From contig JACRDP010000010.1 in assembly GCA_016212855.1 (NCBI GenBank), forward strand, positions 1-42,953: a stretch of DNA of 42,953 nt, read 5' to 3'. The translations under genes and the position numbers were made by a program. The DNA is from Elusimicrobiota bacterium (GTDB lineage Bacteria; Elusimicrobiota; Elusimicrobia; UBA1565; UBA9628). The notes under the pieces were generated by a model that had not been told where the DNA came from, did not search any database, and saw only the letters and a program-made list of their open reading frames with translations. How positions within the stretch are numbered: the first letter of the stretch is position 1; the number at the start of each line of letters is the position of its first letter. Positions 2,191-36,317 of this stretch are shown piece by piece.

Positions 2191-3918
2191 ATGTCCAACC
2201 TCGCCGAAATACTCGTCAGCAGCGGCGTCCTCACGGAAGACCAGCGCGACAAGGCCCAGAAAGCCGCCGTGCAGAGCCGGTGCCACTTCAGCGAAGCCGC
2301 CGTGAAGCTCGGCTTCACGAAGGAAGACGACATCGCCGTCGCCCTCTCGAAGCAGTTCGGCATCCCCTACGCGTCGCGCGAGAACAAGATCCTCAAGTCG
2401 GAGAAGGGTCAGAACCTCGAGAAGGTCGTCCCCGAGAATTACGCGCGCGAGAATCTCGTCCTGCCGCTGTTCCTCGACGAGAACGTGCTCGCCGTCGCGC
2501 TGTCCGATCCGGACAACGTGCTCCTGATCGACAACCTCAAGCTTCTCAGCGGCCACGAGATCCAGGCTTTCATCGCGACGAAGACCCAGATCCTGAAGGC
2601 GATCGACGAGTTTTACCTCGGCAGCAGCGCCATCGACACCACGCTCAACGCGAAGAAGTCCGAGGACGAAGTCGAGGACGTGCCGACGATGGGCGACGAG
2701 CGGCTCAACCTCGACCAGGTCACGGTGGACGCCGCCGGCGCCCAGACCGTTTCACTCATTAACGCTATTCTCAAACAATCCATCCAGGAGCGCACGTCGG
2801 ACATCCATATCGAAAAATACGACGAGCGCGTAGCCCTTCGCTTTCGAATTGACTGCATTCTTTATGAGCGAAGTCCTCCGCCGAAGCACCTGTTCCCGGC
2901 GATGATCTCGCGCATCAAAATTTTGTCCAAGCTCGACATCGCCGAGCGCCGCCTCCCTCAGGACGGCCAGTTCTCGATCAAGGTCCAGAACCGGGTCATC
3001 GACCTGCGCGTCTCCATCTGCCCCTGCGTGTTCGGCGAGAAGGTCGTCATGCGCTTGCTCGACAAAGGCGCGGTCGAACTCGACATCAACAAGGTCGGTC
3101 TCGATCCGAAGCAGCGCGACGACATCATCGAGGCGGCCAACAAGCCGCACGGCCTGTTCTTCATGACCGGCCCCACGGGTTCCGGTAAAACGACCACGCT
3201 CGGCGCCATCCTGAACACGATCAAGAGCCCCGACATCAACATCATGACGATCGAGGACCCGGTCGAGCTCAAGATCGAGGGGATCAACCAGGTGCAGGTT
3301 CGAGCGAATATCGGCCTCACGTTCGCGTCCGCGCTGCGTTCCTTCCTGCGCCAAGACCCCGACGTCATCCTCGTCGGCGAGGTTCGCGACCAGGAAACCG
3401 CCCAAACCTGCCTGCGCGCCGCGCTGACGGGCCACTTGGTCATCTCAACTTTGCACACCAACGACGCCCTGTCCTGCGTCGCCCGCCTCATCGACATGGG
3501 CATCGAGCCCTTCATGCTCGCGAACTCGCTTCAGCTGGCGGCCGCGCAGCGCCTCGTGCGCCTGCTGTGCCCGCTGTGCAAGAAGCCCGCGAAGGTTCCC
3601 GCGGACCTGGCCGAACAGGTCGTGCGCGAGGCCTTGCTCGAGACGCCCCCGGACCCCGCCTCCGTCGTTTTCTATGAAGCGCGGGGTTGCGACAAATGCT
3701 CCCGCACGGGTTACGCCGGACGAAAGGCGATCTATGAAGTCTACAAGCTCAACGCCGCGATGAAGGAGATCATCTATCGCTACGGCGCCGACGTGGGCAA
3801 GCTCAAGAAGGCCGGCGAGGAAGCCGGGATGTGGACGATGCGGGCTTCGGGCTTCCGCAAAGTCATCAACGGTTTGACGACGATCGACGAAGTGATGTCC
3901 GTGACCGTGTCGGATTGA
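2191..3918 (+). CDS. pilB: Type IV pilus / type II secretion extension ATPase, PilB/GspE family
   Basis: Cytoplasmic hexameric ATPase that powers pilin polymerisation. The 575-residue protein has the full family layout: an N-terminal MshEN/GspE-N domain (about 1-150), the linker and N2 domain with SDIHIEKYDERVALRFRID, Walker A GPTGSGKTTT near residue 327, the Asp box TIEDPVE, Walker B with DPDVILVGEVRD near 389, and the His box STLHTNDA. A four-cysteine zinc site is present as CPLC near 460 and CDKC near 500, which is typical of PilB/GspE and absent from PilT. Gene order secretin-ATPase-platform-pilin supports the role. PilB versus GspE rests on context. Confidence 0.93.
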   Translation: MSNLAEILVSSGVLTEDQRDKAQKAAVQSRCHFSEAAVKLGFTKEDDIAVALSKQFGIPYASRENKILKSEKGQNLEKVVPENYARENLVLPLFLDENVLAVALSDPDNVLLIDNLKLLSGHEIQAFIATKTQILKAIDEFYLGSSAIDTTLNAKKSEDEVEDVPTMGDERLNLDQVTVDAAGAQTVSLINAILKQSIQERTSDIHIEKYDERVALRFRIDCILYERSPPPKHLFPAMISRIKILSKLDIAERRLPQDGQFSIKVQNRVIDLRVSICPCVFGEKVVMRLLDKGAVELDINKVGLDPKQRDDIIEAANKPHGLFFMTGPTGSGKTTTLGAILNTIKSPDINIMTIEDPVELKIEGINQVQVRANIGLTFASALRSFLRQDPDVILVGEVRDQETAQTCLRAALTGHLVISTLHTNDALSCVARLIDMGIEPFMLANSLQLAAAQRLVRLLCPLCKKPAKVPADLAEQVVREALLETPPDPASVVFYEARGCDKCSRTGYAGRKAIYEVYKLNAAMKEIIYRYGADVGKLKKAGEEAGMWTMRASGFRKVINGLTTIDEVMSVTVSD

Positions 3919-3943
3919 CAGGGCTTCCAACGCCTGTTACACT
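3915..3943 (+). promoter_or_regulatory. Strong promoter overlapping the pilB stop codon, driving pilC
   Basis: TTGACA at 3915-3920, a 17-base spacer and TACACT at 3938-3943, with TGT just before the -10 (extended -10). The -35 contains the TGA stop of the ATPase gene. The predicted transcription start is near 3950, only a few bases before the ATG at 3953, so the mRNA would be leaderless or nearly so. A GGGG at 3944-3947 could alternatively act as a weak ribosome binding site on longer transcripts. Confidence 0.65.
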
Positions 3944-3952
3944 GGGGAAATA

Positions 3953-8010: not shown

Positions 8011-8026
8011 ACGGCGGTTGCCTGAG

Positions 8027-10289: not shown

Positions 10290-11768
10290 TCAGGCCGCGA
10301 CCGGGTCCTTGTGCTTGGTCTCGCCGGGGGCGAGACGCGAGACGGCCGGCTTCTGGCGGCCGCGCAGGTAGTCGAGGAACTCCTTGCCCTCGCGCAGGCG
10401 GCGCGTGCGCTCGAGCGGGTCCTTGGCCATGCTCACGAGCATGCGCATGATGGGCGTCGGGCGCGCGTAGAAGCGCGAGTAGAAGCGCTTCACGCCCGCC
10501 TCGATCATCTCGGCCGGGAGGTGGGGATACGTGATCGCGGAGGCCTGGGTGCCGTCGTTGCGCACCATGGTGCGCTCGTCGTACCACTTGTTGGTCATGG
10601 CCTGGCGGTACAGCTCGGTGCCGGGGTAGGCGGCGGCCAAGGAAACCTGGATGGTGTCGACGTTCAGCTCGCAGGCGAACTTGATGGACTCCTCGATAGT
10701 GTCCTTGGTTTCACCCGGCAATCCCAAGATGAAGGTGCCGTGGATGGTGATGCCGAGTTTGCGGCAGTCCCTGGTGAACTGCTTCGCGATGTCGGTGCGC
10801 ACGCCCTTCTTGATGTTGTTCAGGATCTGCTGGTTGCCGCTCTCGTAGCCGACAAGCAACAGTCTTAACCCGTTCTCTTTGAAGATCTTCAGGTACTCGA
10901 AGGGGACGTTCGCGCGGCTGTTGCACGACCACATGATCCCGAGCTTGCCCAGGCCCTTGGCGATCTCGGCGGCGCGGGTCAAATCGGCAGTAAAGGTGTC
11001 GTCGTCGAAGAAGAACTCCGCGACCTCGGGGAACATCTCCTTGGCCTTGGCCATCTCCGCGATCACGGCCTTCGCGGACTTGGTTCGGTACACGTGGCCG
11101 CCGACGGTCTGGGGCCACAGGCAGAACGAGCAGCGCGCGGGGCAGCCGCGGCCGGTGTAGATCGACAGGTAGGGGTGCTTCAGGTAGCCGATGTAGTAGT
11201 TCGGCACCACGAGGTCGCGCTTATAAACGTCCAGCACGGACGGGAGGGCGTCCATGTCGTCGATGAGCATCCGGTCGGGGTTGTGGACGAGTTCGCCGTC
11301 CGCCGCGCGGTAGGACAGGCCCGCGATCTGATCGTAGGGGCGGCCCTCGGCGACTTCCTTGATGGTGTAGTCGAACTCCTCGCGGCCCACGAAGTCGAGC
11401 ACGGGGGCGTTTTTGAGCGATTCGGCGGGCAAAACGGCCACGTGGGCGCCCACGAAGCCGATCTTCATGTCGGGGTTCTGCTGCTTGAGGGCCTCGGCGA
11501 CCTTGGCGTCGTTATCAAAGGAAGGAGTGGAGGTGTGGATGATGCACAGCTCGAAGCCGCGGGCGCGCTGGAGGACCTGGTCGAGGGTGAGGTCGTCGGC
11601 CGGGGCGTCGATGAGCTTGGAGGAGGGGATGAGGGCCGCCGGCTGGGCCAGCCAGGTCGGGTACCAGAAGGATTTGATCTCGCGGCGGGCCTGATAGCGG
11701 GCGCCAGCTCCCCCGTCGAAGCCTTCAAAAGAAGGGGGGTTCAGGAACAAAGTGCGCATGGTCGCCAT
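10290..11768 (-). CDS. hpnJ: Radical SAM protein HpnJ (hopanoid cyclitol-ether ring contraction)
   Basis: A 492-residue radical SAM enzyme. The N-terminus LNPPSFEGFDGGAGARYQ then WYPTWLAQPA is characteristic of HpnJ. A B12-binding-type alpha/beta domain (about 45-180) comes next, then the [4Fe-4S] motif CPARCSFC near residues 207-214 and the SAM barrel with FFFDDDTFTAD and GTFILGLPGET. In studied bacteria HpnJ converts the deacetylated glucosaminyl group of bacteriohopanepolyol to the cyclitol ether. ATG 11768 is preceded by GGAG six bases upstream; ATG 11759 (MRTLFLNPP) is an alternative. It is first of three genes (hpnJ-hpnI-hpnL). No squalene-hopene cyclase is in the window. Confidence 0.88.
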   Translation of the reverse strand: MATMRTLFLNPPSFEGFDGGAGARYQARREIKSFWYPTWLAQPAALIPSSKLIDAPADDLTLDQVLQRARGFELCIIHTSTPSFDNDAKVAEALKQQNPDMKIGFVGAHVAVLPAESLKNAPVLDFVGREEFDYTIKEVAEGRPYDQIAGLSYRAADGELVHNPDRMLIDDMDALPSVLDVYKRDLVVPNYYIGYLKHPYLSIYTGRGCPARCSFCLWPQTVGGHVYRTKSAKAVIAEMAKAKEMFPEVAEFFFDDDTFTADLTRAAEIAKGLGKLGIMWSCNSRANVPFEYLKIFKENGLRLLLVGYESGNQQILNNIKKGVRTDIAKQFTRDCRKLGITIHGTFILGLPGETKDTIEESIKFACELNVDTIQVSLAAAYPGTELYRQAMTNKWYDERTMVRNDGTQASAITYPHLPAEMIEAGVKRFYSRFYARPTPIMRMLVSMAKDPLERTRRLREGKEFLDYLRGRQKPAVSRLAPGETKHKDPVAA

Positions 11769-11865
11769 CGAGATCTCCGTACAGCGGTGGTGTCAGGCTT
11801 TTACTTACTCAGTACCGACGGACATTTTACCAAAATACCGCCTGGCAGACAACCTAAAACCGGGA

Positions 11866-11871
11866 TACACT
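11866..11871 (+). promoter_or_regulatory. -10 box directly before the secreted protein gene
   Basis: TACACT ends six bases before the GTG at 11878. No good -35 is seen. Spacing predicts a leaderless transcript, as at several other genes in the window. Confidence 0.45.
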
Positions 11872-11877
11872 GGGTCC

Positions 11878-12534
11878 GTGGCGTCCTCTAAAACACTTAT
11901 TTGTGGCCAGACCGCGCTTTGGCTGTTGTTCCATGCCTCGGCACATGCCGGAGGCCTCGATGCCAAATTCGAAGGGGAACTATTCCCATGGACGAACGGG
12001 ATTTTCCGGCTCTGCGAAGACGCCCGGATGACATGCGGAGTCATTGAAAACTACGATCCCCGAATCTATGCTCCGTTGGTCAGTAAACCCGTTAATAGCA
12101 AGACGGTTCGGGGCGCGTTCGATGAACTGCTTCAGCCCTACCCGAATTATGAATGGGCGGAAGTTGGGACATCGATTATAATCCGGCCGAAAAAGATGAG
12201 TCGGGCCGTGACCGAGAAGCTCTATCACTCGCCTGTCAGCATCACGTTCAAGGACGCCGACACGCACGGCGCTTGTCGCGGTGTTTTGGAACGGGTGAAA
12301 ATCTATACGAATTTCTCCTCGAGCGGGATGGCGCCGAAGTATGGATACATCTCGGCTGAGATCCAGAATCAGAGCGTCGTGGCCGCCCTCAATGAAATCG
12401 CGAAGAGAGACGGGCAGGTCATGTGGCATGGGGGCTACTGGGATGGGTGGCTGTATGCGGAATACACCTTCGGCCTCTCAAGTTGGAGGAGGGAGCGAGC
12501 GATGGATCCGGCGCAACACAGCCGTTCGAAGTGA
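11878..12534 (+). CDS. Small secreted protein of unknown function
   Basis: A 218-residue protein. I choose GTG 11878 because it gives a clean signal peptide (MASSKTLICGQTALWLLFHASAHA, cut before GGL) and sits six bases after a -10 box; longer frames upstream run through the repeat-like and promoter sequence. The mature part has two Cys near the start (RLCEDARMTCGV). Segments such as GAFDELLQPYPNYEWAEVGTSIIIRPKK and AALNEIAKRDGQVMWHGGYWDGW look like the small alpha/beta folds of secretin N-domains (STN), but the match is weak. Base composition is visibly less GC-rich than the hpn genes, and it lies beside two toxin-antitoxin modules, which suggests an accessory gene. No confident family. Confidence 0.6.
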   Translation: MASSKTLICGQTALWLLFHASAHAGGLDAKFEGELFPWTNGIFRLCEDARMTCGVIENYDPRIYAPLVSKPVNSKTVRGAFDELLQPYPNYEWAEVGTSIIIRPKKMSRAVTEKLYHSPVSITFKDADTHGACRGVLERVKIYTNFSSSGMAPKYGYISAEIQNQSVVAALNEIAKRDGQVMWHGGYWDGWLYAEYTFGLSSWRRERAMDPAQHSRSK

Positions 12535-12591
12535 AATAGCAGTAGCCGATGCGCTTCGTAACCCGTCTGGCGGGCAATGGAGTCGGGGATT

Positions 12592-12921
12592 TTAGGCGGT
12601 GAGAAAGCGGGCGAGCTCCGTTTCGGGTATCAGGACAACCCGGCAGCCGAGGGCCTTTGCCGCTCGGGCGACCATTTTGGACGTGAGGTTCTCGTTCTTC
12701 CTTTCGAGACGCGCGACATTGGACTGCCGGAGGCTCATCCGCTTGGCGACTTCTTCCTGGGTCAGTCCGAGCCGGTGCCTCAGCACGGCCAGTTGCGTGT
12801 TGATGGGCTCTTTGGCTAATTCCGCCAAATACGCCAGTTTGAGCAGGGGGTCTTTCTCGAAGACTCCGTCCACATAGCGATCAAACCCGCCCCGTCTCTC
12901 TTGTCGAGCCATAGTCTTCAC
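12592..12921 (-). CDS. XRE-family HTH antitoxin (HigA-like), module 1
   Basis: A 109-residue DNA-binding protein. Residues about 40-95 form an XRE helix-turn-helix: LAVLRHRLGLTQEEVAKRM then LRQSNVARLERKNENLTSKMV. It follows the toxin gene and starts with an ATGA overlap (ATG at 12921 over the toxin TGA), the toxin-first order typical of higBA. It probably neutralises the upstream RelE-like toxin and represses the promoter at 13269-13312. An internal ATG at 12912 is possible, but the overlap favours 12921. Confidence 0.83.
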   Translation of the reverse strand: MKTMARQERRGGFDRYVDGVFEKDPLLKLAYLAELAKEPINTQLAVLRHRLGLTQEEVAKRMSLRQSNVARLERKNENLTSKMVARAAKALGCRVVLIPETELARFLTA

Positions 12922-13268
12922 CTTCCCTGGACGATATTCGCCATCCGGCTTCTAGCCGCGTGCAAATCCCGCAGCGGCGTCTTTTGCGTCGTCTTCTCAA
13001 AAGCATGAAGGAGCCATATTCCATGCCGGTGAACGCAGAACAAAATCCGGTAATGCACCCCTTGGTACGCCCGCCGCAACTCCCATAGGCCCTGCCCTAA
13101 CGATCGCACGGATGTTCTTGGACTGAGCAGGCCTTCTTGAACCAAGATGTCGAGATCGGCGAGAAGTCGGGACAAAGCCTTGCGTCGATCTCCACGACCG
13201 CGCAGGGATTCGAAGTACTCCTGCACCGGACCGTGGCTGCCATCGGGATAGAACTCGATGGTCAGCAT
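12918..13268 (-). CDS. RelE/HigB-family toxin, module 1
   Basis: A 116-residue protein starting MLTIEFYPDGSHGPVQEY. It has the RelE/ParE/HigB layout: SLRGRGDRRKALSRLLADLDIL, RSLGQGLWELRRAYQGVHYRILF and HAFEKTTQKTPLRDLHAA. The motif G-LWELR ... YRILF ... HAF-KKT near the C-terminus is the usual core of mRNA-cleaving HigB-type toxins bound to ribosomes. I take ATG 13268; the frame continues upstream but runs through the promoter. It is co-transcribed with the HTH antitoxin. Target and activity are inferred from the family. Confidence 0.83.
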   Translation of the reverse strand: MLTIEFYPDGSHGPVQEYFESLRGRGDRRKALSRLLADLDILVQEGLLSPRTSVRSLGQGLWELRRAYQGVHYRILFCVHRHGIWLLHAFEKTTQKTPLRDLHAARSRMANIVQGR

Positions 13269-13312
13269 GAATATACTGTATATAGTATATACCGTATACT
13301 GTATTCTGTCAA
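13269..13312 (-). promoter_or_regulatory. Promoter-operator of toxin-antitoxin module 1
   Basis: On the minus strand TTGACA (13312-13307), a 17-base spacer and TATACT (13289-13284), 15 bases before the toxin ATG. The whole 13269-13306 stretch is an AT-rich imperfect palindrome that begins and ends in GAATA-type arms and contains ATACAGTATA twice. Such a repeat over the -10 and spacer is the expected binding site for the HTH antitoxin, giving autorepression. Confidence 0.75.
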
Positions 13313-13484
13313 GAGTCCGCCCCGCTTCGTTTCCACATCCATCATACGAACGAGAGGGCCAAATTGTTCCCTGTGCCTGGGCTTGATCAGGCCTCACTGA
13401 CGGCCGCCTGGCCGGAACAAAACGCACCCCTCAATCGTATGGATAGGGGGGATTTGACGAGCGACCTGCGGCCCGATAGTCCCC

Positions 13485-13513
13485 TTGACAGATAGTAGCT
13501 TCTGAGCTACTAT
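13485..13513 (+). promoter_or_regulatory. Promoter-operator of toxin-antitoxin module 2
   Basis: TTGACA at 13485-13490 and TACTAT at 13508-13513, spacer 17. A perfect inverted repeat ATAGTAGCT-TCTG-AGCTACTAT covers 13492-13513, so it fills the spacer and includes the -10. GGGAGG at 13515-13520 is the ribosome binding site for GTG 13528. A repressor on this repeat would block RNA polymerase. Confidence 0.75.
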
Positions 13514-13527
13514 TGGGAGGTAGCTGC

Positions 13528-13863
13528 GTGGACATTGCGCCGGTCGAGATTCGGTATTACCAAACGGCTTCCGAGAAGCGTCCGTTCCAGGTGTGGCTCG
13601 ATTCCTTGGATGCATCCGTGCAGCAGATCGTGGCCGTACGGTTGGCGCGCATTCGCCGGGGCCTGTTCGGCGATGCCGAGCCGGTGGGAGAAGGCGTCTT
13701 TGAGCTTAAGATCGATGTCGGTCCCGGTCACAGGATTTATCTCGGTAGGGACGGGAAGGTCGTGGTTATTCTGCTTCATGCCGGCGATAAAAAGCGGCAG
13801 TCGGCGGATATCGAGCGGGCACAGGGCTTCTGGCAGGACTATTTGCGGAGGACAAGAAAATGA
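13528..13863 (+). CDS. HigB/RelE-type killer protein, module 2
   Basis: A 111-residue toxin of the phage-derived Gp49-like/HigB killer group. Start is GTG 13528, seven bases after GGGAGG; the TTG at 13513 in the same frame lies inside the promoter. Visible core: IRYYQTASEKRPFQVWLDSL, VAVRLARIRRGLFGD, GEGVFELKIDVGPGHRIYLG and VVVILLHAGDKKRQSADI. The pattern V-ELR/K-I-GPGYRIY-G ... LL-GGDK--Q--DI is diagnostic for this family of putative addiction module killers. The stop overlaps the antitoxin start (ATGA). Confidence 0.85.
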   Translation: MDIAPVEIRYYQTASEKRPFQVWLDSLDASVQQIVAVRLARIRRGLFGDAEPVGEGVFELKIDVGPGHRIYLGRDGKVVVILLHAGDKKRQSADIERAQGFWQDYLRRTRK

Positions 13864-14159
13864 AATCAACGGTCAGTGCGTCGGTCGGCTACCGAGATGA
13901 TCTGCTTCGCCGTTTGAAGGAGCCTGAGTTCGCCGCCGGTTATCTGAGCAAAAGTCTGGAGGATGACGAGGCGACTTTTCTCGTCGCGCTGCGCGACGTG
14001 GCGGAGGCTCACGGCGGCATTCGTGAAATGGCCAAAAAAACCCGTCTCAACAGGGAGCATCTCTTTCGGATGCTCTCGAAAACCGGCAATCCCCATCTGC
14101 ACAGCCTACGGCAATTGGTGGGGGCGGTCGGCCTCAAACTCACCTTGCAGCCCGCCTAG
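13860..14159 (+). CDS. HigA-type antitoxin (addiction module antidote), module 2
   Basis: A 99-residue protein. Residues 11-40 (YRDDLLRRLKEPEFAAGYLS, then LEDDEATFLVALRDVAEAHG) and the HTH IREMAKKTRLNREHLFRMLS followed by GNPHLHSLRQLVGAVGLKL match the putative antidote family that pairs with Gp49-like killers. Start ATG 13860 overlaps the toxin stop. Together with module 1 it makes two independent toxin-first pairs reading away from each other across a gap of about 260 bases. Confidence 0.87.
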   Translation: MKSTVSASVGYRDDLLRRLKEPEFAAGYLSKSLEDDEATFLVALRDVAEAHGGIREMAKKTRLNREHLFRMLSKTGNPHLHSLRQLVGAVGLKLTLQPA

Positions 14160-14188
14160 ACTTAACGGTGGCGAGCCCGTGCTTCTTC

Positions 14189-14197
14189 TGTTAAACT
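14189..14197 (+). promoter_or_regulatory. Extended -10 box for the secreted peptidase gene
   Basis: TGT followed by TAAACT (14192-14197), five bases before ATG 14203. No clear -35. Predicts a leaderless mRNA. Confidence 0.5.
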
Positions 14198-15181: not shown

Positions 15182-15210
15182 TTGAATTCGCCCCGTTTTG
15201 GGGTTATATC
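15182..15210 (+). promoter_or_regulatory. Promoter for the giant secreted protein
   Basis: TTGAAT at 15182-15187, 17-base spacer, TATATC at 15205-15210. The TTG of the -35 is in frame with the gene and can be mistaken for its start codon. The real start is GTG 15215 or ATG 15227, so the leader is at most about ten bases. Confidence 0.6.
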
Positions 15211-15226
15211 GGGAGTGGCCTCCCCG

Positions 15227-18200
15227 ATGCGAATCTCCCTGAAGCGGTTGGCGTTCTTCCTGGCCCTCGCCATGTTCGGCGCCCGTCCGGCGCTGGCGGC
15301 GTTATCGGTCGTGAGCACGATCACCGTGGCCGGATCGGGCGGCGGCGCTGACGCCGTCGAGGACATGGCTCAGGATGCCTCCGGAAACCTCTACGTCGCC
15401 GGTCATCTATCCCAGGCCGGGGGCTCCGACATCTGGGTCGCGAAGTACAGTCCGGCGCTCGTCCTCCTATCGACGTATACCTATGACCGAGCCGGGTTCG
15501 AGGACTATGCCTGGAGCGTGTCCGTGGACACGGCGACGGGCAACGTCTTCGTCGCCGGGTTCGTTTCGACGGCGCCGGCTTCCTCGTCCTACGACATCTG
15601 GTTCGCGAAGTTCGACTCGAGCCTGGCGCTGATCTCGTCGGCGACCATCAACGGCTCGGCCGGGGACCGGGACGAAGCCATGGGCGTTCGGGTCGACGGC
15701 GGCGCGGTGTACGTGGTGGGCCGCAGTTCCGTCACGGGCGGCCCGGTCCATTGGGTCTCACGCTACGACACGAACCTGGTCCTGCTCTCGAGTTCCGCGT
15801 TCGCGCAGTATGACCCCTACAGCTACGACATCGTGGCCGTCTCAGCCTCCAGTCTTTTCGTCGCCGGCGGACGGGGACCCAACGGCACGACTTCGCCGGA
15901 CGCGTGGCTCGGGAAATACGACTGGAACCTCGTCCTGCTGACGAGCGCGGCGCTCAGCGGGCCGGGCGCGAACATCGACGAATTCATGCAGCTCGCCGCC
16001 GACGGAAGCGGCGGGGTCTACGCGGCGGGCTTCATCGACAGCGCCGCCAACGCCTCCGACCGCTTCCTCATCCACTACGACGCCAACCTCGTACTGTTGA
16101 GCTCCGCCTCGGCCAACGGCCCGGGCAATTCCATCGACTACCTCACCGACATCCTGGTCGCTTCGAGCGGCACTGTGCTCGTCTCCGGAAGCGTCAGCGA
16201 CATCGCCGGCGCCGGCAGCAAGAACGTTTTCATCGCCGAGTACACGACCGACTTCGTGCTTATTTCGAGCACGACTCACCGCTCCAGCGGCACGGGTTTC
16301 GATCACGCGAAGACGATCGTGTTGGGAACAAATAACGACCTGTATGCCGCGGGCTGGGTGACCGAGGCAAATCAAGACGCCTGGATCGCCAGGTTGAGCG
16401 TCACGTCGGCCCCCGCCGCGCCTTCGGGCTTCGCCGGCGCGGCGCAGTCGTCGAGTTCGATACTCTGGAGCTGGACGGACAACTCCACGAATGAGACCGG
16501 CTTCCGGATCATGCTCGGCGCCGGGAATCTCTCGGGCGATCTCAGCCCGAACACGACGTACTGGATCCAGGCGGGACTGAGCGCGAACACGGCGTCGGGG
16601 ACCTTGCTTGCGCGCGCTTTCAACGGAGGCGGCACGGCGGACTCGGGCGGCGCCGCGCGCTACACGCTCGCGAACGTTCCCGTCGGCGTGTCCTCCGCGG
16701 GCGTCGGCGTCGGCGCCGCGACTTTGAGCTGGGGCGCGGGGGGAAATCCCGCGGGGTCCTCGTACGCGCTCGAGCGTTCGACGGGAACCGGCTACGGCGT
16801 CAGGCTGACGACGACCGTCTTCGTTTTCGCGGATTCGACGCTCTCTCCCGCCTCCACGTACTACTATCGCGTGCGCGCGTTCAACGGCGACGGGCTCGCG
16901 ACCGCCTATACGTCCACGCTGACGGTCGTCACGCCGCCCCTGCCGGTCCAGCCCGCGCCGGCGTCGATCGCGCCGTCCTCCGGCGCGGCCGGAGCGAGCG
17001 TCGGCGTGACCGTGACCGGGACCGGCTTCGACGCGACGGCGACGTTGACGCTCGAGAAGACCTCCGTGGACGCGGGCGTGTGGACCGCGACCGGCTCGTT
17101 TGCGACGGCTCGCATGCTGGGTAGCCTGACCAAGCTGCGCGACGGCAAGGTCCTGCTCGCGGGCGGCATGCTCGAAGGCGCGGCCCCGGGCCTGCCGCAG
17201 GTCGACGTCTTCAATCCCGTGACCGGCGCTTGGACCGCGGGCGCGCCGTTGCCGGAGGGACGCAATCAGTTCGCCTCCGTGTTGCTCCCCGATGGGCGCG
17301 TGCTGATAGCGGGAGGCCAGGGTTCGAGCGGGACGTTCGTCAACTCTGCGGCGATCTACGACCCGGTCTCGAGCACCTGGACCGCGGCCGCGCCGATGTC
17401 GGTCAAGCGCTCGGGCTTCAATCTGACCTTGCTCCCGAGCGGCAAGGTGCTCGCGGCCGGCGGCTGGGACGGCGCGACGAAGCAGGCGGGCGCCGAGCTG
17501 TACGACCCCGCGACGGACTCCTGGTCCGCGGCCGGGACGATGAGCGCGGGCCGCGTCTCGCCGTCGGCGACCTTGCTCGGCAACGGGAAGGTGCTCGTCG
17601 CCGGAGACTCCGGCGCGACCGCGGCCGGACTCACGGCCGAGCTCTACGACCCGGGCGGCAACAGCTGGACCCTGACCGGCTCGATGAACGTCAAGCGCTT
17701 CTCGCACACGGGCCTGCTGCTGCCGGACGGCCGCGTGCTGGCCGCGAGCGGCAACGACGGCGTATTCGTATCGTCGACGGCCGACGTGTACGACGTCGCG
17801 ACCGGCTCGTGGACCGCGACGGGGCCGATGGCCGTGGGGCGGCGCAGCTACGCGACGGTGCTGGTTTCCGGCGTGCCTCTCGTGATCGCGGGCGAGACCG
17901 ACTCGGCGGCGCTCGCGACGAACGAGAACTACGACGCGGCGAGCCAGACCTGGCGCGCCGGGCCGCCGCTCGGCGGCGTGCGCGCGTACCCGCTCGCCGT
18001 CGTGCTCGACGACGGAAAGGTTCTTGTCGCGAGCGGGCGCGCGGGCTATACGGGCGCGGCCAATCTGAACACGGCCGAGGTCTTGACGATGCCCGTGACC
18101 TCGATCGCGGCGACCGGGGTCTCGGTTCCCAATGCGCTGACCGTCAGCGGCACCGTCAACCTGACGGGCGCGGCGACCGGCTACTGGGACGTGGTCGTGC

Positions 18201-20731
18201 GGGAGTCCGGCGGGCGGGCGGGACGGCTCAACGGCGGCTTCCTGGTCGCGACGGGACCGGCTTCGCCGTCCGGCTTCACGGGGACCACGCTGTCGACGTC
18301 CTCGATTCAGTGGAGCTGGTCGGACAACACCGCGCTCGAGACGGGCTACCGCGTGATGTCCGGCGCGGCGAATATTTCCGGCGACTTGGCCGCGAACACG
18401 ACCGTCTGGGTCCAGACGGGCCTCGCGGTCAACGCGAGCACGGGCCCTTTGCTGGCGCAGGCGTTCAACCCGTGGGGCACGGCGAACTCCGGCGCGGCGT
18501 CGCGCTACACCTTGGCCGCTGTCCCGGGCGTTCCGGCGGCTTCGGGCGTTTATCAGACGAGCGGCACGCTCAGCTGGAGCGCGGGCGGCAACCCCGCCGG
18601 CACGGTCTATCAGCTTGAGCGTTCGACTGGAACGGGCTTCGGTCTGCAGTTCTCCGGGACCGCGACGACCTATTTCGACGGCTACCTGACGCCGGGCGCG
18701 ACGCATTTCTTCCAGGTGCGCGCGCTCAACGGCGACGGGCTCGCCACGTCCTATTCCGCGACGGCGACGGTCGTCGCGGTGGCGCCGCCGCCCGTGCCCG
18801 GCATCGCGGGCACGCCGGCCGGGACGGCTCTCGGAACCTCGTCGCTGACCTGGACCTGGGTGCTGGCGGCGGGCGCTACGAACCACTACCTGCTTCGCGC
18901 CTCGGACAACTCCTTCCTCGGGGCCTCGTCGTCAGGCCCGTTTTTGATGGCGGCGCTGACGCCGAACACCGCCTACGGCCTGCGCGCGGCCGGCGTCAAC
19001 GTCGGCGGCACGGGGCCGCTGTCGCCGTCGGGCACGGCCTATACCTTGGCCGCGGTCCCGTCGTCGCCGCTCGTCTCCTCAATTACCGCGACGTCGTTGG
19101 TCGCGTCGTGGGGCCTCAACGGCAACCCCGGCTCCACGACCGCCCAGCTCGAGCGCTCGACGAACGCGGTCGTCTACTCGACCTTGGCGGCCGGCGTCAT
19201 CACCTCCTACGCCGACGCCGATCTTATAGGCTGCACGACCTACTACTACCGCGTGCGCAACGCCAACGGAGACGGGCTGCTCACGGCCTATACTTCGTTC
19301 TCGGACGTGACGGCGAACACGATCGCGTCGCCGCCCTCCGGGCTGACCGCCGCGGCGAACGCCGGGGGGACCGTGACCTTGGGCTGGAGCCTCTCGCCGA
19401 CCGAAGGCGTGACGGGCTACCGCCTGTACTGGGACGCGGGCACGGGGACGGTGAGCTACGCCGCGCCCATCGCCTCCCTGAGTTCCGTGACGGCCGCGTA
19501 CACGACGGGCGTCTTGACATCGAGCGCCTCGTACACGTTCGCGCTGCGCACGGCCCACCGCTGCGGAGTCGTCGAGACGACGGGCGCGCTGGCGATGTCG
19601 GGCGCGGCCGTCGCCCCGCCCGCCCTGCGCGCCGTGATCAAGGAGCCCGACTCGGGCAAGCGCGTCCACGGCAACCGCTTGACCATACTCGGCGAGCTGA
19701 TCTACGGCGCGCCGTCCGAGGCCCAGCAGGTTCTGTTCCAGTACAAGCTCGCGTCCTCCACGGCCTGGCTCGATATCGACGAGGCCAACGTCAATCATCA
19801 AAATCCGGACTTCTCCTTCCCTTACTTCGTCCATGCCGACGTCAACTCGATCGCGCCCGGCGACTACGATCTGCGCGCCGTCGCCTACAACCTGAGCGGC
19901 GTTCCCGACTCCGCGCCTCCCGCCGTGCGCGTGACGGTCGTGACGGCGAACGCGGACATCGACGAGAACGACGTCGCCGGCGCGGTGAAGAAGGACCAGA
20001 CGGTCAACAACACGGTCACGAGCGTGATCGACACGGCCGGCGCGGGCGCCGCGGATCCGTCGGTGCGCGTCAGCATCCCGCCCGGGGCCGTCAATGCCGC
20101 CACGGCGACGGTCTCCGTCATAGCCAACCCGGCGATCACCACCGCCGCGCCCTCCGGGATGTCCTTGGTCGGCTCGGCGATCAAGATCGACCTGTCGAAC
20201 GGCCAGACCGCTCTCAACGGGACCGCCGCGATCACGTTGACGTATCCCGATACCGTGCGCTTCCCGTCTTTGCTGCAGATCTACTACCTCAACGAAGCCA
20301 CCGGACAGTGGTCGCGCGACTTCAACTCCACGGTGAACACGTCCTCGCGCATCGTGTCGGGCAACACCCCGCACTTCTCGACCTTCGCCTTGCTCCTCGG
20401 CTCCGCCTTCGCGCTCAACCTCGACTCCGTCCTGGTCTATCCGGTCCCCTTCAAGCCCAACGGCGGCAACGCCGACGAGGGCCGCCCGTTCTCCGCCGGC
20501 GATCCCAACTCGGGGATCATCTTCGCCAATCTCGCGATGGGCAGCGAGATCAAGATCTACACGCTGACCGGCCGCCAGGTGGCGACCCTCGAAAACATTC
20601 CGATCACGGGGAGCGTCCGCTGGGACGCGCGCAACCAAGACGGGCGCGACGTCGCCTCCGGCGCCTATTTCGCCGTCATCAAGGCTACGGGGCAGAAGAC
20701 CGTGGTCAAGAAGCTGGTGATCATCCGATGA
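15227..20731 (+). CDS. Giant secreted multidomain protein: beta-propeller, FN3 repeats, Kelch propeller, FlgD-Ig-like C-terminal domain
   Basis: About 1834 residues. ATG 15227 gives a signal peptide ending near ARPALA; GTG 15215 would add four residues. Order: an SBBP-like seven-bladed propeller (to about 16400, blades with YVAGHLSQ, VFVAGFVS, YAAGFIDS); an FN3 pair (16409-16930); an IPT-like piece (ASIAPSSGAAGASVGVTVTG); a Kelch/galactose-oxidase-like propeller (about 17090-18060, repeated VLLPDGRVLIAGG); a second FN3 pair near-identical in layout to the first (18250-18780); three more FN3-like units; an Ig-like domain (KEPDSGKRVHGN); a ZU5-like region (VSIPPGAVNAATATV); and a C-terminal FlgD-Ig-like domain (YPVPFKPN ... 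IKIYTLTGRQVATL ... WDARNQDGRDVASGAYF). Likely cell-surface adhesion or binding. ATGA overlap links it to the PorV-like gene. Confidence 0.85.
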   Translation: MRISLKRLAFFLALAMFGARPALAALSVVSTITVAGSGGGADAVEDMAQDASGNLYVAGHLSQAGGSDIWVAKYSPALVLLSTYTYDRAGFEDYAWSVSVDTATGNVFVAGFVSTAPASSSYDIWFAKFDSSLALISSATINGSAGDRDEAMGVRVDGGAVYVVGRSSVTGGPVHWVSRYDTNLVLLSSSAFAQYDPYSYDIVAVSASSLFVAGGRGPNGTTSPDAWLGKYDWNLVLLTSAALSGPGANIDEFMQLAADGSGGVYAAGFIDSAANASDRFLIHYDANLVLLSSASANGPGNSIDYLTDILVASSGTVLVSGSVSDIAGAGSKNVFIAEYTTDFVLISSTTHRSSGTGFDHAKTIVLGTNNDLYAAGWVTEANQDAWIARLSVTSAPAAPSGFAGAAQSSSSILWSWTDNSTNETGFRIMLGAGNLSGDLSPNTTYWIQAGLSANTASGTLLARAFNGGGTADSGGAARYTLANVPVGVSSAGVGVGAATLSWGAGGNPAGSSYALERSTGTGYGVRLTTTVFVFADSTLSPASTYYYRVRAFNGDGLATAYTSTLTVVTPPLPVQPAPASIAPSSGAAGASVGVTVTGTGFDATATLTLEKTSVDAGVWTATGSFATARMLGSLTKLRDGKVLLAGGMLEGAAPGLPQVDVFNPVTGAWTAGAPLPEGRNQFASVLLPDGRVLIAGGQGSSGTFVNSAAIYDPVSSTWTAAAPMSVKRSGFNLTLLPSGKVLAAGGWDGATKQAGAELYDPATDSWSAAGTMSAGRVSPSATLLGNGKVLVAGDSGATAAGLTAELYDPGGNSWTLTGSMNVKRFSHTGLLLPDGRVLAASGNDGVFVSSTADVYDVATGSWTATGPMAVGRRSYATVLVSGVPLVIAGETDSAALATNENYDAASQTWRAGPPLGGVRAYPLAVVLDDGKVLVASGRAGYTGAANLNTAEVLTMPVTSIAATGVSVPNALTVSGTVNLTGAATGYWDVVVRESGGRAGRLNGGFLVATGPASPSGFTGTTLSTSSIQWSWSDNTALETGYRVMSGAANISGDLAANTTVWVQTGLAVNASTGPLLAQAFNPWGTANSGAASRYTLAAVPGVPAASGVYQTSGTLSWSAGGNPAGTVYQLERSTGTGFGLQFSGTATTYFDGYLTPGATHFFQVRALNGDGLATSYSATATVVAVAPPPVPGIAGTPAGTALGTSSLTWTWVLAAGATNHYLLRASDNSFLGASSSGPFLMAALTPNTAYGLRAAGVNVGGTGPLSPSGTAYTLAAVPSSPLVSSITATSLVASWGLNGNPGSTTAQLERSTNAVVYSTLAAGVITSYADADLIGCTTYYYRVRNANGDGLLTAYTSFSDVTANTIASPPSGLTAAANAGGTVTLGWSLSPTEGVTGYRLYWDAGTGTVSYAAPIASLSSVTAAYTTGVLTSSASYTFALRTAHRCGVVETTGALAMSGAAVAPPALRAVIKEPDSGKRVHGNRLTILGELIYGAPSEAQQVLFQYKLASSTAWLDIDEANVNHQNPDFSFPYFVHADVNSIAPGDYDLRAVAYNLSGVPDSAPPAVRVTVVTANADIDENDVAGAVKKDQTVNNTVTSVIDTAGAGAADPSVRVSIPPGAVNAATATVSVIANPAITTAAPSGMSLVGSAIKIDLSNGQTALNGTAAITLTYPDTVRFPSLLQIYYLNEATGQWSRDFNSTVNTSSRIVSGNTPHFSTFALLLGSAFALNLDSVLVYPVPFKPNGGNADEGRPFSAGDPNSGIIFANLAMGSEIKIYTLTGRQVATLENIPITGSVRWDARNQDGRDVASGAYFAVIKATGQKTVVKKLVIIR

Positions 20732-24918: not shown

Positions 24919-24946
24919 AGTATAGCATTTCGGGCGTATCGAACAA
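24919..24946 (-). promoter_or_regulatory. uvrA promoter (extended -10, nearly leaderless)
   Basis: On the minus strand TTGTTC (24946-24941), 16-base spacer ending in TGC, TATACT (24924-24919), then seven bases to the ATG at 24911. No LexA-type repeat is evident. Confidence 0.65.
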
Positions 24947-25042
24947 GTGTACGGCATGGAACTTTTTGGGGGGGTCAATCGTCTGGTAGGTAGGCTCCAG
25001 TCTCGTTGTCGCTCTGGGGGCCGCGACTTACTATTGATAATC

Positions 25043-26175: not shown

Positions 26176-27739
26176 TAAACGTATTGCGGCGCCATGAGGA
26201 TTTCGTCGCCGGGTAATCAAGCGTGTAATGCAGCCCGCGCGATTCCTTGCGTTTCATCGCGCAGCGGATGACCATCGTCGCCACATCGGCGATGTTGCGC
26301 AGCTCGACGACGTCGGGGGTCGGCAGGAAGTCCCAGTAGTAGTCCGCGATCTCGCGCCGGAGGAGTTGGAGGCGGGCGAGGGCCCGGTCGAGGCGCTTGT
26401 TCGTGCGCACGATGCCGACGTAGTTCCACATCAGCTGGCGGATCTCGTCCCAGTTCTGAGAGATGACGACGGCCTCGTCGGAGGTCACCGCGCGGCCGGG
26501 GTTCCAGGGCTTGGCCTTGAAGGCGGCGCGCGGGGCGAAGGCGGAGGACGAAGCGAGGTGCTCGGCGAGGCGGTGGGCGAAAACGCAGCCCTCGAGAAGC
26601 GAGTTCGACGCGAGACGGTTGGCGCCGTGCAGGCCGGTGTGCGCGGTCTCCCCGACCGCGTACAGGCCGGGCACCGAGGTGCGGCCATTCGTGTCCGTGT
26701 GCACGCCGCCGCAGAAGAAGTGCGCGGCGGGGACGGCGGGGATCGGATCGACGGCCATGTCGATGCCGAACGATTTGACCTTGGCGTAGATGTTGGGAAA
26801 ACGGGATTTCAGGAACGCGCGCGGATGATGGGTCATGTCGAGGTACACGCACTCATCGCCGGTGCGTTTGAGCTCGGAGTCGATGGCGCGCGCGACGATA
26901 TCGCGCGGCGCGAGCTCTTTGCGGCGATCGTAGCGGGACATGAAGCGCGTCCCGTCTTTAAGAATAAGACGGCCTCCCTCGCCGCGAAGGGCCTCGGAGA
27001 GCAAAAAGTTCTTCGCTTGAGGGTGATAGAGACAGGTGGGGTGAAACTGCACGAACTCCATGTTCGCCATGACGGCGCCCGCGCGCCAGGCCATGGCCAT
27101 GCCGTCGCCGGTCGCGATGTCGGGATTACTCGTAAATAAATAGACCTTGCCGGCGCCTCCGGTGGCCAAAACCGTGGCGCCGGCCTCTAAAGGGGTTATC
27201 TCGCCCGTTGCTCGATCCATGATGTAGGCGCCGCGGCAGGCGCCGCGCGAGTCGAGGAGCAGATCGACGGCGAGGGCGTTTTCGATCAAAGTCACGTTCT
27301 TGTCGCGGCGGGCGCCGGACACGAGCGCGCGCTCGATCTCGCGGCCGGTGATGTCGCCGGCGTGCAGGATGCGGCGGTGGCTGTGGCCGGCCTCGAGTCC
27401 CAAGTCGATCACCGACTCGCGCTCGGAGAAGCGCACGCCGAGCTCCTGGAGCTCGCGCACGCGCTCGGGCGCCTCGGCGACGGTCAGGCGCGCGACTTTC
27501 TCGTCGCACAGCCCGGCGCCGGCGATCAAGGTGTCGCGCACGTGCGACTCGAAGGTGTCGAGCTCGCTCATGACGGCCGCGATTCCGCCCTGGGCGTAGT
27601 TCGTGTTCGATTCCGCGGCCTCTTTTTTAGTGACCAAGGTGACACGGCCGAGGCGGGCCAACTTTTTAGCCGTCAGAAGGCCGGCAATACCCGAACCGAG
27701 GACGAGATAATCGGAACGGCGGGGCGCACGTTTGGACAT
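26150..27739 (-). CDS. nadB: L-aspartate oxidase
   Basis: Flavoenzyme that oxidises L-aspartate to iminoaspartate, first step of de novo NAD synthesis. The 529-residue protein has the N-terminal FAD motif YLVLGSGIAGLLTAKKLA, the family pieces SNTNYAQGGIAAV, GHSHRRILHAGDITGREIE, VQFHPTCLYHP, LLSEALRGEGGRL and the C-terminal FAD-contacting GLHGANRLASNSLLEG, then the helical C-terminal domain. Length fits NadB. The substrate motif and lack of an iron-sulfur partner argue against succinate dehydrogenase. No nadA or nadC is near. It diverges from the carbonic-anhydrase-like gene with overlapping -10 boxes at 27759-27770. Confidence 0.95.
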   Translation of the reverse strand: MSKRAPRRSDYLVLGSGIAGLLTAKKLARLGRVTLVTKKEAAESNTNYAQGGIAAVMSELDTFESHVRDTLIAGAGLCDEKVARLTVAEAPERVRELQELGVRFSERESVIDLGLEAGHSHRRILHAGDITGREIERALVSGARRDKNVTLIENALAVDLLLDSRGACRGAYIMDRATGEITPLEAGATVLATGGAGKVYLFTSNPDIATGDGMAMAWRAGAVMANMEFVQFHPTCLYHPQAKNFLLSEALRGEGGRLILKDGTRFMSRYDRRKELAPRDIVARAIDSELKRTGDECVYLDMTHHPRAFLKSRFPNIYAKVKSFGIDMAVDPIPAVPAAHFFCGGVHTDTNGRTSVPGLYAVGETAHTGLHGANRLASNSLLEGCVFAHRLAEHLASSSAFAPRAAFKAKPWNPGRAVTSDEAVVISQNWDEIRQLMWNYVGIVRTNKRLDRALARLQLLRREIADYYWDFLPTPDVVELRNIADVATMVIRCAMKRKESRGLHYTLDYPATKSSWRRNTFIKKPAGRD

Positions 27740-27758
27740 TGAAAGGGGGGTGATGGAG

Positions 27759-27770
27759 TGCTAGATTCTA
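27759..27770. promoter_or_regulatory. Overlapping divergent -10 boxes of nadB and the carbonic anhydrase operon
   Basis: On +, TGC then TAGATT (27762-27767) ends seven bases before ATG 27775. On -, TGT then TAGAAT (27770-27765) lies 25 bases before the nadB ATG at 27739. The two -10 boxes share bases, so both promoters cannot be opened at once. Confidence 0.55.
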
Positions 27771-27774
27771 ACAC

Positions 27775-28305
27775 ATGATCCGTTCCTTCTCCGGAAGAAC
27801 GCCCCGCATCCACCCGAAGGCCTTCGTCCATGACGCCGCCGAGGTGATCGGCAAGGTGTCGCTCGCCAAGGATTCCTCGGTGTTCCCGGGGTGCGTCCTG
27901 CGCGGGGACATCGACGAGATTAAAATCGGCGAAAGGACCAACATTCAAGATCTGGTCGTCGTTCACACGAGACGGGGCAGTCCCGCGATTATCGGGAAGG
28001 GCGTGACGGTGGGCCACCGTGCCGTCCTGCACGGGTGCCGCATCGGCGATCAGGCGCTCATCGGCATGGGCGCGATCGTGATGGAGGCCACCATCGGAGC
28101 GAGAACTCTTGTCGGCGCTGGAGCCGTCGTGATGGCGGGAGCCAAGATTCCCTCCGGCGTCCTCGTCCTCGGCACGCCCGCCAAGGTCGTGCGCAAGCTG
28201 CGCCCCGAGGAGCTGCGCATGCTGGGCGAGAGCGAGCGCTCATACGTGGCGCTGTCGCGGCGCCACAAGGCCGCTTCGCGGGTCGTTTTCGGCGCGCGGC
28301 CGTGA
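27775..28305 (+). CDS. Gamma-carbonic anhydrase family protein (YrdA/PaaY-like)
   Basis: A 176-residue left-handed beta-helix protein with hexapeptide repeats (GKVSLAKDSSVFPGCVLRGD, TIGARTLVGAGAVVM). The three zinc His ligands are present: H64 in VVHTRRG, H81 and H86 in GHRAVLHGC. The closing GTPAKVVRKL is standard in the family, followed by a helical tail. Members may be active carbonic anhydrases or have thioesterase or other roles, so catalytic function is uncertain. It is first in a five-gene chain where each stop overlaps the next start, so it would be co-translated with the kinase-like gene (GTGA). Confidence 0.87.
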   Translation: MIRSFSGRTPRIHPKAFVHDAAEVIGKVSLAKDSSVFPGCVLRGDIDEIKIGERTNIQDLVVVHTRRGSPAIIGKGVTVGHRAVLHGCRIGDQALIGMGAIVMEATIGARTLVGAGAVVMAGAKIPSGVLVLGTPAKVVRKLRPEELRMLGESERSYVALSRRHKAASRVVFGARP

Positions 28306-31967: not shown

Positions 31968-31988
31968 GCCGGGCGCGGGACGCCCGGC
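31968..31988. terminator. Hairpin between convergent serC and feoB
   Basis: GCCGGGCG (31968-31975) pairs perfectly with CGCCCGGC (31981-31988) around a five-base loop, starting right after the serC stop. No T-run follows on the + strand. It lies in a 52-base convergent gap and is probably a shared transcription end. Confidence 0.6.
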
Positions 31989-32019
31989 ACAGATGCCGCA
32001 GCGGAAACTCTCATAGCAT

Positions 32020-34214: not shown

Positions 34215-34220
34215 GGGGAC

Positions 34221-34249
34221 ATTATAGCCTTGTTGAGACAGTATTTCAA
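34221..34249 (-). promoter_or_regulatory. feoAB promoter, consensus and leaderless
   Basis: Minus strand: TTGAAA (34249-34244), spacer 17, TATAAT (34226-34221), then six bases to the feoA ATG. It is the closest match to sigma70 consensus in the window. The + strand -10 of the next gene lies 44 bases away, so the two genes are divergently driven. Confidence 0.75.
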
Positions 34250-34292
34250 TAAGGGGGTCTCCGGGGGACTGGCAAATCGTCGGCGACGGGCT

Positions 34293-34298
34293 TATACT
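34293..34298 (+). promoter_or_regulatory. -10 box of the M48-like peptidase gene
   Basis: TATACT ends six bases before ATG 34305. The -35 is not clear. Predicts a leaderless transcript. Confidence 0.55.
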
Positions 34299-34304
34299 GG
34301 GCTT

Positions 34305-35225: not shown

Positions 35226-35237
35226 GCGCGACTGGAT

Positions 35238-35246
35238 TGCTATAAT
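35238..35246 (+). promoter_or_regulatory. Extended -10 box of the TPR gene
   Basis: TGC followed by TATAAT (35241-35246), six bases before GTG 35253. It sits in the 27-base gap after the peptidase gene and predicts a leaderless mRNA starting with GTG. Confidence 0.6.
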
Positions 35247-35252
35247 CCCGCC

Positions 35253-36317
35253 GTGCCCGATCCCTTCTCGCGTCTCGAAACGGCCCGCGAGCATTGCGCC
35301 GCCGGCCGCCCCGACCGGGCCCTCGCTCTCCTGAATACCGCCGTCCCCGCCGCGCTTGAGGCTGAGCGCCGGCTGATCCAAGGCGAGGCCCTGCGCGGGC
35401 AAGGCTATTTCGGCCGGGCCATGAGCGCCTACCGCGAGGCGCTCAAGCGCGTCGAATCCGGAGACCGGGACCTCGCCTTCGACGCCTGGTTCGGGCTCGC
35501 GCGCTGCGCCCGGAGCCTCGGTCGCACCGGGGAAGCGCGGCGCGCCCTCGCGCGCGCGCGCCGGATTCCGGGCGCCGACCGGGAGACGCTCGCGCTCGAG
35601 GACGCGCTCGTCCTGCGCGCGGACAGCAAGCACCGGGCCGCGCTCAAGGCTTTGACTCCGATGCTCGCCGCCGCCCGCCGCCGCCGCGACGGGTCCGCCG
35701 TGGGCTTCCTGCTGTGGGCGATCGCGGGCTCGCGCCGCTTTTCCGGAGATCTCGCGGGCTCTCACCGCGACTTCAAGGAATCGCTGTCCGCGTTCCGCCG
35801 CTCCCGTGACGCCGAGGGCGAGGCCTACGCCCTGTTCGGGCTCGGGGGCATCGCCCGCGTGCGCGGCCTCTTCGCCGAGGCGCGCCGCGCCTACGTCGAA
35901 GCGGGCAAGCGCCTCAAGGGCGGCCCCGACCTGTTCGGCCGCGCCTACGCGCATTGCGGCTTGGCCAATTGTCTACGCCAGCAGGGGTTATTGGACGAAG
36001 CCGAGCGCAATTATCACGCGTCTTATAAGCTCTACGCGGGACTCGACGATCGCGTCGATCTCGCCTTCGTCGACTGGGGACTCGGCCAGATCCATCAGCG
36101 CCGCGGCCAATTGCCCGCCGCGGAGAAACGTTACCGCGCCGCGCTCGCCGCCTTCGGCGGGGGCGCCGAGGACCGCGGCCTCATCCTCGCGCGCAAGTCG
36201 CTCGCCGAAGTCCTCCACGCCCGCGGCCGCACCGCCGAAGCCGAGAAGCTCTTCGACTCCGCCGTCGCCCTCGCCCGCCGCGCCGGCCTCACCGCCCACC
36301 TCGAACCCTACACCTAA
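35253..36317 (+). CDS. Tetratricopeptide-repeat protein
   Basis: A 354-residue protein made almost wholly of TPR-like helix pairs: AREHCAAGRPDRALALLNTA, GQGYFGRAMSAYREALKRVE, GLARCARSLGRTGEARRALARA, ALFGLGGIARVRGLFAEARRAYVEAGKRL, CGLANCLRQQGLLDEAERNYHASYKLY, LGQIHQRRGQLPAAEKRYRAALAAF and SLAEVLHARGRTAEAEKLFDSAVALA. No signal peptide or membrane segment, so probably cytoplasmic. Such proteins serve as binding scaffolds; the partner is unknown. Very GC-rich codon use like the core genes. It ends just five bases before an inverted-repeat element. Confidence 0.8.
   Translation: MPDPFSRLETAREHCAAGRPDRALALLNTAVPAALEAERRLIQGEALRGQGYFGRAMSAYREALKRVESGDRDLAFDAWFGLARCARSLGRTGEARRALARARRIPGADRETLALEDALVLRADSKHRAALKALTPMLAAARRRRDGSAVGFLLWAIAGSRRFSGDLAGSHRDFKESLSAFRRSRDAEGEAYALFGLGGIARVRGLFAEARRAYVEAGKRLKGGPDLFGRAYAHCGLANCLRQQGLLDEAERNYHASYKLYAGLDDRVDLAFVDWGLGQIHQRRGQLPAAEKRYRAALAAFGGGAEDRGLILARKSLAEVLHARGRTAEAEKLFDSAVALARRAGLTAHLEPYT

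Follow-up and report, generated by a model that had tools for sequence, protein, structure and literature searches.

The stretch of DNA considered here (the window), the first 42,953 bases of a contig (C5) of 239,203 bases from a metagenome-assembled genome of an Elusimicrobiota bacterium, raises the question of whether promoter boxes of the TATAAT type, ending only a few bases before the start codons of nine of its genes, mark messenger RNAs that lack a 5' leader. From these sites, a preliminary description had proposed heavy use of leaderless translation. The genome sequence bears this proposal out, with a sharp peak of the box at six bases before the start codon and with Shine-Dalgarno sites found elsewhere, more of them inside operons. 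Very probably, about a third of the operon-first genes are transcribed in a leaderless or near-leaderless manner from promoters of the sigma-70 type, with 5' ends predicted from the position of the boxes. The genome comprises 2,503,262 bases in 30 contigs and is 72.66% complete. Among 80 loci listed, its UvrA protein is 73% identical to that of Elusimicrobia bacterium RIFCSPHIGHO2_02_FULL_57_9, the nearest named genome, 63 and 61% to those of two further Elusimicrobiota loci and 53-59% to the remainder; by this one protein the genome is placed in Elusimicrobiota and, presumably, in the class Elusimicrobia.

For the analysis, 1,006,875 of the 2,503,262 bases (40%, window included) were sampled, and 873 genes were called with a codon-phase Markov model blind to upstream sequence. 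Leaving out 23 genes at contig edges, 850 were analysed, of which 438 counted as operon-first, being either divergent or separated from the preceding gene by more than 20 bp, and 412 as internal. A box was defined as any TAnnnT hexamer agreeing with TAA at one or more of its three middle positions, and the spacer as the number of bases between box and start codon. The genome-wide peak of the -10 motif at about -12 from the start codon, named in the preliminary description as a check, was indeed found: 68 of the 438 operon-first genes carry a box at a spacer of exactly 6, where 2.53 were expected per offset, and spacers 5-9 together gave 122 matches, spread over 118 genes, versus 12.7 expected. 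A stricter set of 342 first genes, in which any gene that was not divergent had to lie over 60 bp from the one before it, showed 59 boxes at spacer 6 and 104 at spacers 4-9, with 13.6 expected. Expectation maximization (EM) from random seeds recovered the motif G-c-TATA(A/C)T de novo, with 6 as the top spacer, and estimated that it occurs anywhere upstream in 54% of the operon-first genes, about 62% of it at spacers 5-9, so that about a third of these genes are boxed at leaderless distance.

Several further features are those of a promoter. A TAnnnT at spacer 5-9 precedes 133 genes. Of these, 28 have a -35 element matching TTGACA at no fewer than five of six positions, compared with 2.2 in shuffles; matches of at least 4/6 peaked at 17 bp from the box (33 genes, versus 0-7 at every other spacing between 8 and 29), and 45 genes had a TGn before the box, versus about 8 assumed from composition. 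Neither a -35 match of at least 4/6 at 16-18 bp nor a TGn was seen in 57 of the 133. Where TAnnnT lies at spacer 5-7 (107 genes), the start codons are ATG (83), GTG (23) and TTG (1), the last being found in 29 of the 331 other first genes (Fisher p 0.003), and a C directly precedes the start in 65 of the 107 versus 135 of the 331. Shine-Dalgarno-like sites, judged throughout from counts of the 4-mers GGAG, GAGG and AGGA, were found in only 4 of the 118 boxed first genes versus 78 of the 320 unboxed ones, and at 4-12 bases in 163 of the 412 internal genes (background 32). Given the -35 at 17 bp, the frequent TGn, the near absence of TTG starts and the few Shine-Dalgarno sites, the boxes look like sigma-70-type promoters. 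EM runs on the unboxed first genes gave no clear second motif, and on the internal genes they gave no Shine-Dalgarno motif, a low-information pattern winning instead. No 16S gene was found in the incomplete genome itself; the anti-Shine-Dalgarno core is kept in the relatives read, whose 16S tail is CCTCCTT (CCTCCTA in L137) in the 10 loci with the anchor found, of 12 fetched.

Given where bacterial RNA polymerase usually initiates relative to the -10, a spacer of 6 makes the first base of the start codon the +1. Housekeeping promoters of the sigma-70 type would thus be placed so that transcription starts at the start codon or within about three bases before it, and this position would yield a messenger without, or nearly without, a 5' leader. 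Translation would then have to be initiated by a ribosome carrying initiator tRNA directly at a 5'-terminal AUG or GUG, with no Shine-Dalgarno pairing, such ends presumably being read by leaderless (70S or IF2-dependent) initiation, while Shine-Dalgarno-like sites would serve more in the downstream genes of operons and in unboxed first genes.

Could the boxes be a product of chance or of composition in a genome of 66% GC? TAnnnT is a short motif, which speaks for this, but the controls refute it and we give it practically no credit. After 500 shuffles of the 40 upstream bases, the count at spacer 6 had a mean of 2.6 and a maximum of 10, compared with 68 in the real sequence; E. coli showed no signal in the same pipeline (87 first genes, none at spacer 6 and 5 at spacers 5-9 versus 5.2 expected), and the genome contains 60 occurrences of TATANT-N6-ATG versus 10 of TATANT-N12-ATG. 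Another reading takes the boxes as promoters and the start codons as misassigned, the true starts lying downstream behind ordinary leaders. Called starts are imperfect, the caller having reproduced 80 of 126 annotated E. coli starts exactly (110 genes called), which lends this some weight; such errors would dilute a spacer peak rather than create it, and wrong starts give no reason for a sharp spacer of 6. Moreover, the peak is stronger where the start is unambiguous: 111 genes with no in-frame start upstream or in the next 15 codons gave 45 matches versus about 3. At uvrA, the alignment pairs residue 1 of the protein with Met 21 of the solved UvrA chain 2r6f, the first 20 residues of which we take to be a tag, and the called start therefore agrees with the solved protein. 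Altogether, misassignment seems very improbable.

The box might instead be an AT-rich, unstructured or bS1-binding enhancer of translation on messengers that start further upstream. According to the part of PMC5397173 available, a bias near the -10 position may reflect binding of RPS1, and some internal genes are boxed as well (23 matches at spacers 5-9 in 412 genes versus 1.7 expected). An enhancer would leave the -35 partner at exactly 17 bp and the TGn unaccounted for; the box is also far commoner in operon-first genes (122 matches in 438) than in internal ones, and it rarely occurs together with Shine-Dalgarno-like sites. We consider this explanation very unlikely and prefer leaderless or near-leaderless transcription, reading the boxes at internal genes as probable promoters inside operons.

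Some observations nevertheless weigh against leaderless transcription as the general explanation, the boxed internal genes among them. The starts of single genes are uncertain, given the accuracy of the caller. G011, a genome of the same genus of which 200 kb of one contig were read, repeats the peak, its 97 first genes carrying 18 boxes at spacer 6 versus 0.4 expected and 25 at spacers 5-9 versus 2.0; yet of 42 reciprocal best pairs between the two samples, 2 were boxed in both genomes, and a further 5 and 3 had a box in just one of the two (p 0.19), at least some of these with miscalled starts. The spacers at uvrA in the congeners range from 6 to 11, so that in some a leader may reach about 5 bases. 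The Deinococcus plasmid MP1, run as a control, gave 6 boxes at spacers 5-9 in 78 first genes versus 1.5 expected, a weaker signal than that of our genome. Lastly, an excess of boxes before ATG is not peculiar to the lineage: in 23 genomes from outside the phylum, of 26 counted, TATANT-N6-ATG exceeded TATANT-N12-ATG in 17, with p<0.01 in 3 (Acidimicrobiaceae, Burkholderiales and Gemmatimonas) and p<0.001 in none, the strict TATANT pattern being a poor detector in GC-rich genomes.

Returning to the window, all nine boxes were re-read at the positions and spacers described, eight of them fitting TAnnnT, and 7 of the 15 called operon-first genes are boxed at spacer 5-9 (binomial p ~9e-8 versus the genome background). 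Among the nine, two are weak examples and one is poor. The extended TGn reported for five sites is present in exactly five. A -35 element at 16-17 bases had been attributed to pilC, feoA, uvrA and the giant protein; it stands for the first two and for the giant protein, that of uvrA being weak, and the gene at 27775 has a further one that had not been listed.

On the plus strand, the pilC gene (T2SSF/PilC in Pfam) has a perfect TTGACA (3915..3920, 6/6) 17 bp from a TACACT (3938..3943) preceded by TGT; with a spacer of 9 to the ATG at 3953 and a position 34 bp behind pilB, it is a weak case. So is the TACACT (11866..11871, plus strand) six bases before the GTG at 11878 of what had been termed a secreted protein, a gene not called from coding potential; a longer reading frame from the GTG at 11752, which covers it, matched no Pfam family. 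The region 11752-14160 has few and low-scoring gene calls and a lower GC content (56.8% at 12,001-14,000), and is perhaps acquired DNA. A Peptidase_MA-like gene (Pfam Peptidase_MA_2) carries TAAACT (14192..14197, plus strand) after a TGT, five bases before the ATG at 14203. The poor case is the TATATC (15205..15210, plus strand) of the giant protein, the one box outside TAnnnT: its final T is missing, and coding potential prefers the in-frame ATG at 15227 to the GTG at 15215 (spacer 4), while its -35 is TTGAAT (4/6, 17 bp). This protein of 1834 amino acids (15227-20731), with Kelch and fn3 domains, shows a weak C-terminal match, below the Pfam cut-off, to CHU_C, a type IX secretion signal.

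The gamma-carbonic-anhydrase-like gene (Hexapep in Pfam; ATG 27775, plus strand) has TTGAAA (27739..27744, 5/6), overlapping the start codon of the divergent gene by one base, 17 bp from a TAGATT (27762..27767) with TGC and a spacer of 7; the latter overlaps a TAGAAT on the opposite strand. The two divergent genes, 35 bp apart, enclose the near-palindromic TGCTAGATTCTAACA (27737-27777), with -10-like boxes on both strands, the one on the plus side alone being at leaderless distance. On the minus strand, feoA (FeoA in Pfam) has TTGAAA (34244..34249, 5/6) 17 bp from TATAAT (34221..34226), which lies six bases before the ATG at 34214. The same spacer of 6 is seen, both on the plus strand, for TATACT (34293..34298) before the ATG at 34305 of an M48 peptidase gene, the Pfam assignment of which is barely above the cut-off, and for TATAAT (35241..35246), with TGC, before the GTG at 35253 of a TPR gene (TPR in Pfam). 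As a contrast, pilB had been described as having a longer leader with a purine-rich site, and this was seen: its TATACT (2154..2159, plus strand; TTGACT at 2132-2137) lies 31 bases upstream of the ATG at 2191, with a purine-rich stretch between. The window gave no Rfam or tRNA matches, and a 90-bp intergenic probe found nothing among plasmids.

The uvrA site could be followed in relatives. On the minus strand, TATACT (24919..24924), with TGC, precedes the ATG at 24911 by seven bases, the -35 being TTGTTC (3/6, 16 bp). uvrA was matched in all 19 genomes of the genus, and the box together with the same ATG is kept in 16 of the 18 congeners, as a TGn followed, at a spacer of 6-11, by TATACT, TATAAT, TAAAAT or, in one case, TACGAT. 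As to the other two, uvrA begins off the contig in G014, and in G016 (L212) the alignment did not start at a start codon and no box was read. Further upstream, the sequence varies between congener subgroups. Outside the genus, a TAAAAT precedes an in-frame ATG at a spacer of 9 in L034, and L035 and L036 have no box at 5-9. Beside this, the uvrA match in G011 (C1:1835597-1838422) is split into several pieces, and one internal stop is counted in those of G007 and G003 (L209; L210), which may reflect decay, errors of sequencing or the gene's natural end. Over the -35 region lies a LexA-like sequence, GTACACTTGTTC on the uvrA strand (24941..24952, minus strand; GAACAAGTGTAC at 24941-24952), 29 bp before the uvrA start, with similar sequences in some congeners (GTACATATGTAC in G011). 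Presumably, it is a candidate LexA-type SOS operator. A scan of the 1 Mb sample for further LexA-like boxes up to 120 bp from start codons gave three GTACnnnnGTTC, all at other genes, and, at uvrA, one GAACnnnnGTAC; these form no convincing regulon.

Of 91 divergent gene pairs in the sample, 16 have a gap of 1-45 bp, and 8 of these (gaps of 19-38 bp) are boxed on both sides, versus 8 of the 75 other pairs (Fisher p 0.0009). The eight compact pairs, given as start/start in G000, are C20:88510/88530, C10:19124/19148, C14:62505/62530, C14:100796/100829, C24:165573/165607, C20:26058/26092, C24:207511/207548 and C2:53792/53831. Where the gap is 19-24 bp, the other gene contains the -35 region, and where it is 32-38 bp, that region lies at the start of the other gene or next to it; -35 matches in these pairs are poor (at most 4/6), and single pairs could be affected by start-calling errors. 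Conservation in G011 of the 38-bp pair C2:53792/53831, the sole pair looked up, was rejected, as the neighbourhood differs.

How far the trait reaches was addressed by counting TATANT-N6-ATG over 119 whole genomes of the phylum, with TATANT-N12-ATG as a spacer control or the reversed pattern as a second one. The 38 nearest genomes all exceeded the reversed control. Compared with N12, the N6 count was higher in 55 of the 56 genomes of the same class (p<0.001 in 40; median ratio 2.05) and in 48 of the 63 of other classes (p<0.001 in none; median ratio 1.09), the latter summing to a slight excess of 7,533 versus 6,857; with the reversed pattern, p<0.001 was reached in 31 of 56 versus 2 of 63. At least one genome at p<0.001 was found in four of the eight families of the class with N12 and in six of the eight with the reversed control. 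At the gene level, the f7 genome G098 had 17 boxes at spacer 6 versus 4.33 expected, a smaller share than in our genome, and samples of other genomes, those of G019, G024, G036, G037 and G144 being too small singly, were pooled: six from the class outside the genus gave 12 versus 3.0 expected, and six from other classes 3 versus 4.0, with G074 alone at 5 versus 1.3 for spacers 5-9. In the AT-richer G098 and G100 (both f7), the spacer-6 peak is weaker, and Shine-Dalgarno-like sites in first genes are more frequent, than in our genome. Among the named Elusimicrobia genomes, the N6 versus N12 counts were 53 versus 31 (G176, L035; p 0.011), 133 versus 102 (G175, L034; p 0.025) and, for Candidatus Endomicrobiellum cryptotermitis (G177, L036), 109 versus 96 (p 0.20); as the last are identical to those of G118, we take family f11 (38 genomes) to be the family of this organism.

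The sequence sign of leaderless genes is common in the class, and the other classes of the phylum show it weakly or not at all; since the background rises with AT content, it is to be regarded in the AT-rich classes as undetected rather than proven absent. A class-wide reading is opposed by family f6, with no excess over N12 (143 versus 164 in 2 genomes), by f5, f9 and f10, with one genome each and no significant excess, and by 5 of the 11 f8 genomes that are not significant. That a leaderless-rich class might lack bS21 was rejected, PF01165 being matched in 111 of the 119 genomes (54 of 56 in the class, where our incomplete genome is among the two without a match, and 57 of 63 in other classes). 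On balance, we lean slightly towards leaderless initiation being a class-level trait, which would be used widely in this class (taken to be Elusimicrobia) and escapes detection in the others, among them the Endomicrobiellum lineage, despite a kept anti-Shine-Dalgarno and bS21, and which would also permit divergent pairs to share a gap of 19-38 bp consisting mostly of two -10 boxes, with each promoter's upstream half at the start of the opposite gene or within it.

The genome adds a lineage in which both modes of initiation would operate side by side, and as related classes appear to differ in the leaderless one, a single phylum could be used to study its gain or loss. In this lineage, starts may be misplaced by gene callers that are geared to Shine-Dalgarno sites, and a cultured member of the class, if showing the same sign, could serve for 5'-end mapping.

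That leaderless use is unusual outside Actinobacteria and Deinococcus, as suggested in the preliminary description, is too strong a statement, since printed surveys place leaderless genes in many phyla. In the available part of Zheng et al. 2011 (PMC3160421), they were detected in 207 of 953 bacterial genomes, with an average share, where detected, of 19.2% in Actinobacteria (86/89 genomes) and 39.4% in Deinococcus-Thermus (5/5), and also of 26.5% in Aquificae (2/5), 15.8% in deltaproteobacteria (8/33) and 13.3% in Acidobacteria (3/3). A set with 4,769 bacteria had 21.6% of bacterial species predicted as leaderless users, according to an excerpt of PMC9581028. Elusimicrobiota are not named in the portion of PMC3160421 at hand, where 8 of 20 'Other Bacteria' are positive, unnamed and may include a member, and PMC10783764, in its accessible sections, gives the classes of the phylum by anti-Shine-Dalgarno type only. 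The open literature searched, with subscription papers and supplements outside its scope, held, as judged in part from titles, no report of leaderless genes in Elusimicrobiota, and searches on divergent or bidirectional leaderless promoters and on leaderless mRNA in candidate phyla found nothing on this lineage.

Compared with known systems, each as given in the parts of the sources available, the genome resembles those of Zheng et al. 2011 (PMC3160421) in mixing leaderless and Shine-Dalgarno genes and in its signal, the TA-like element about 10 bp upstream of leaderless genes likewise being TAnnnT, with a weakly informative middle in high-GC genomes. Such a mixed genome is also what it shares with the leaderless class of bacteria in GeneMarkS-2 (quoted in PMC9581028). 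In Deinococcus-Thermus (PMC12340547), a -10 element a few bases before the open reading frame likewise gives leaderless mRNA, at about 30% of the open reading frames of that phylum, where this has been tested experimentally; our genome, from another lineage, differs in a clear enrichment of a TTGACA-like -35 (28/133 at 5/6 or better). As far as the literature was searched, we are thus dealing with an ordinary mechanism in a new lineage.

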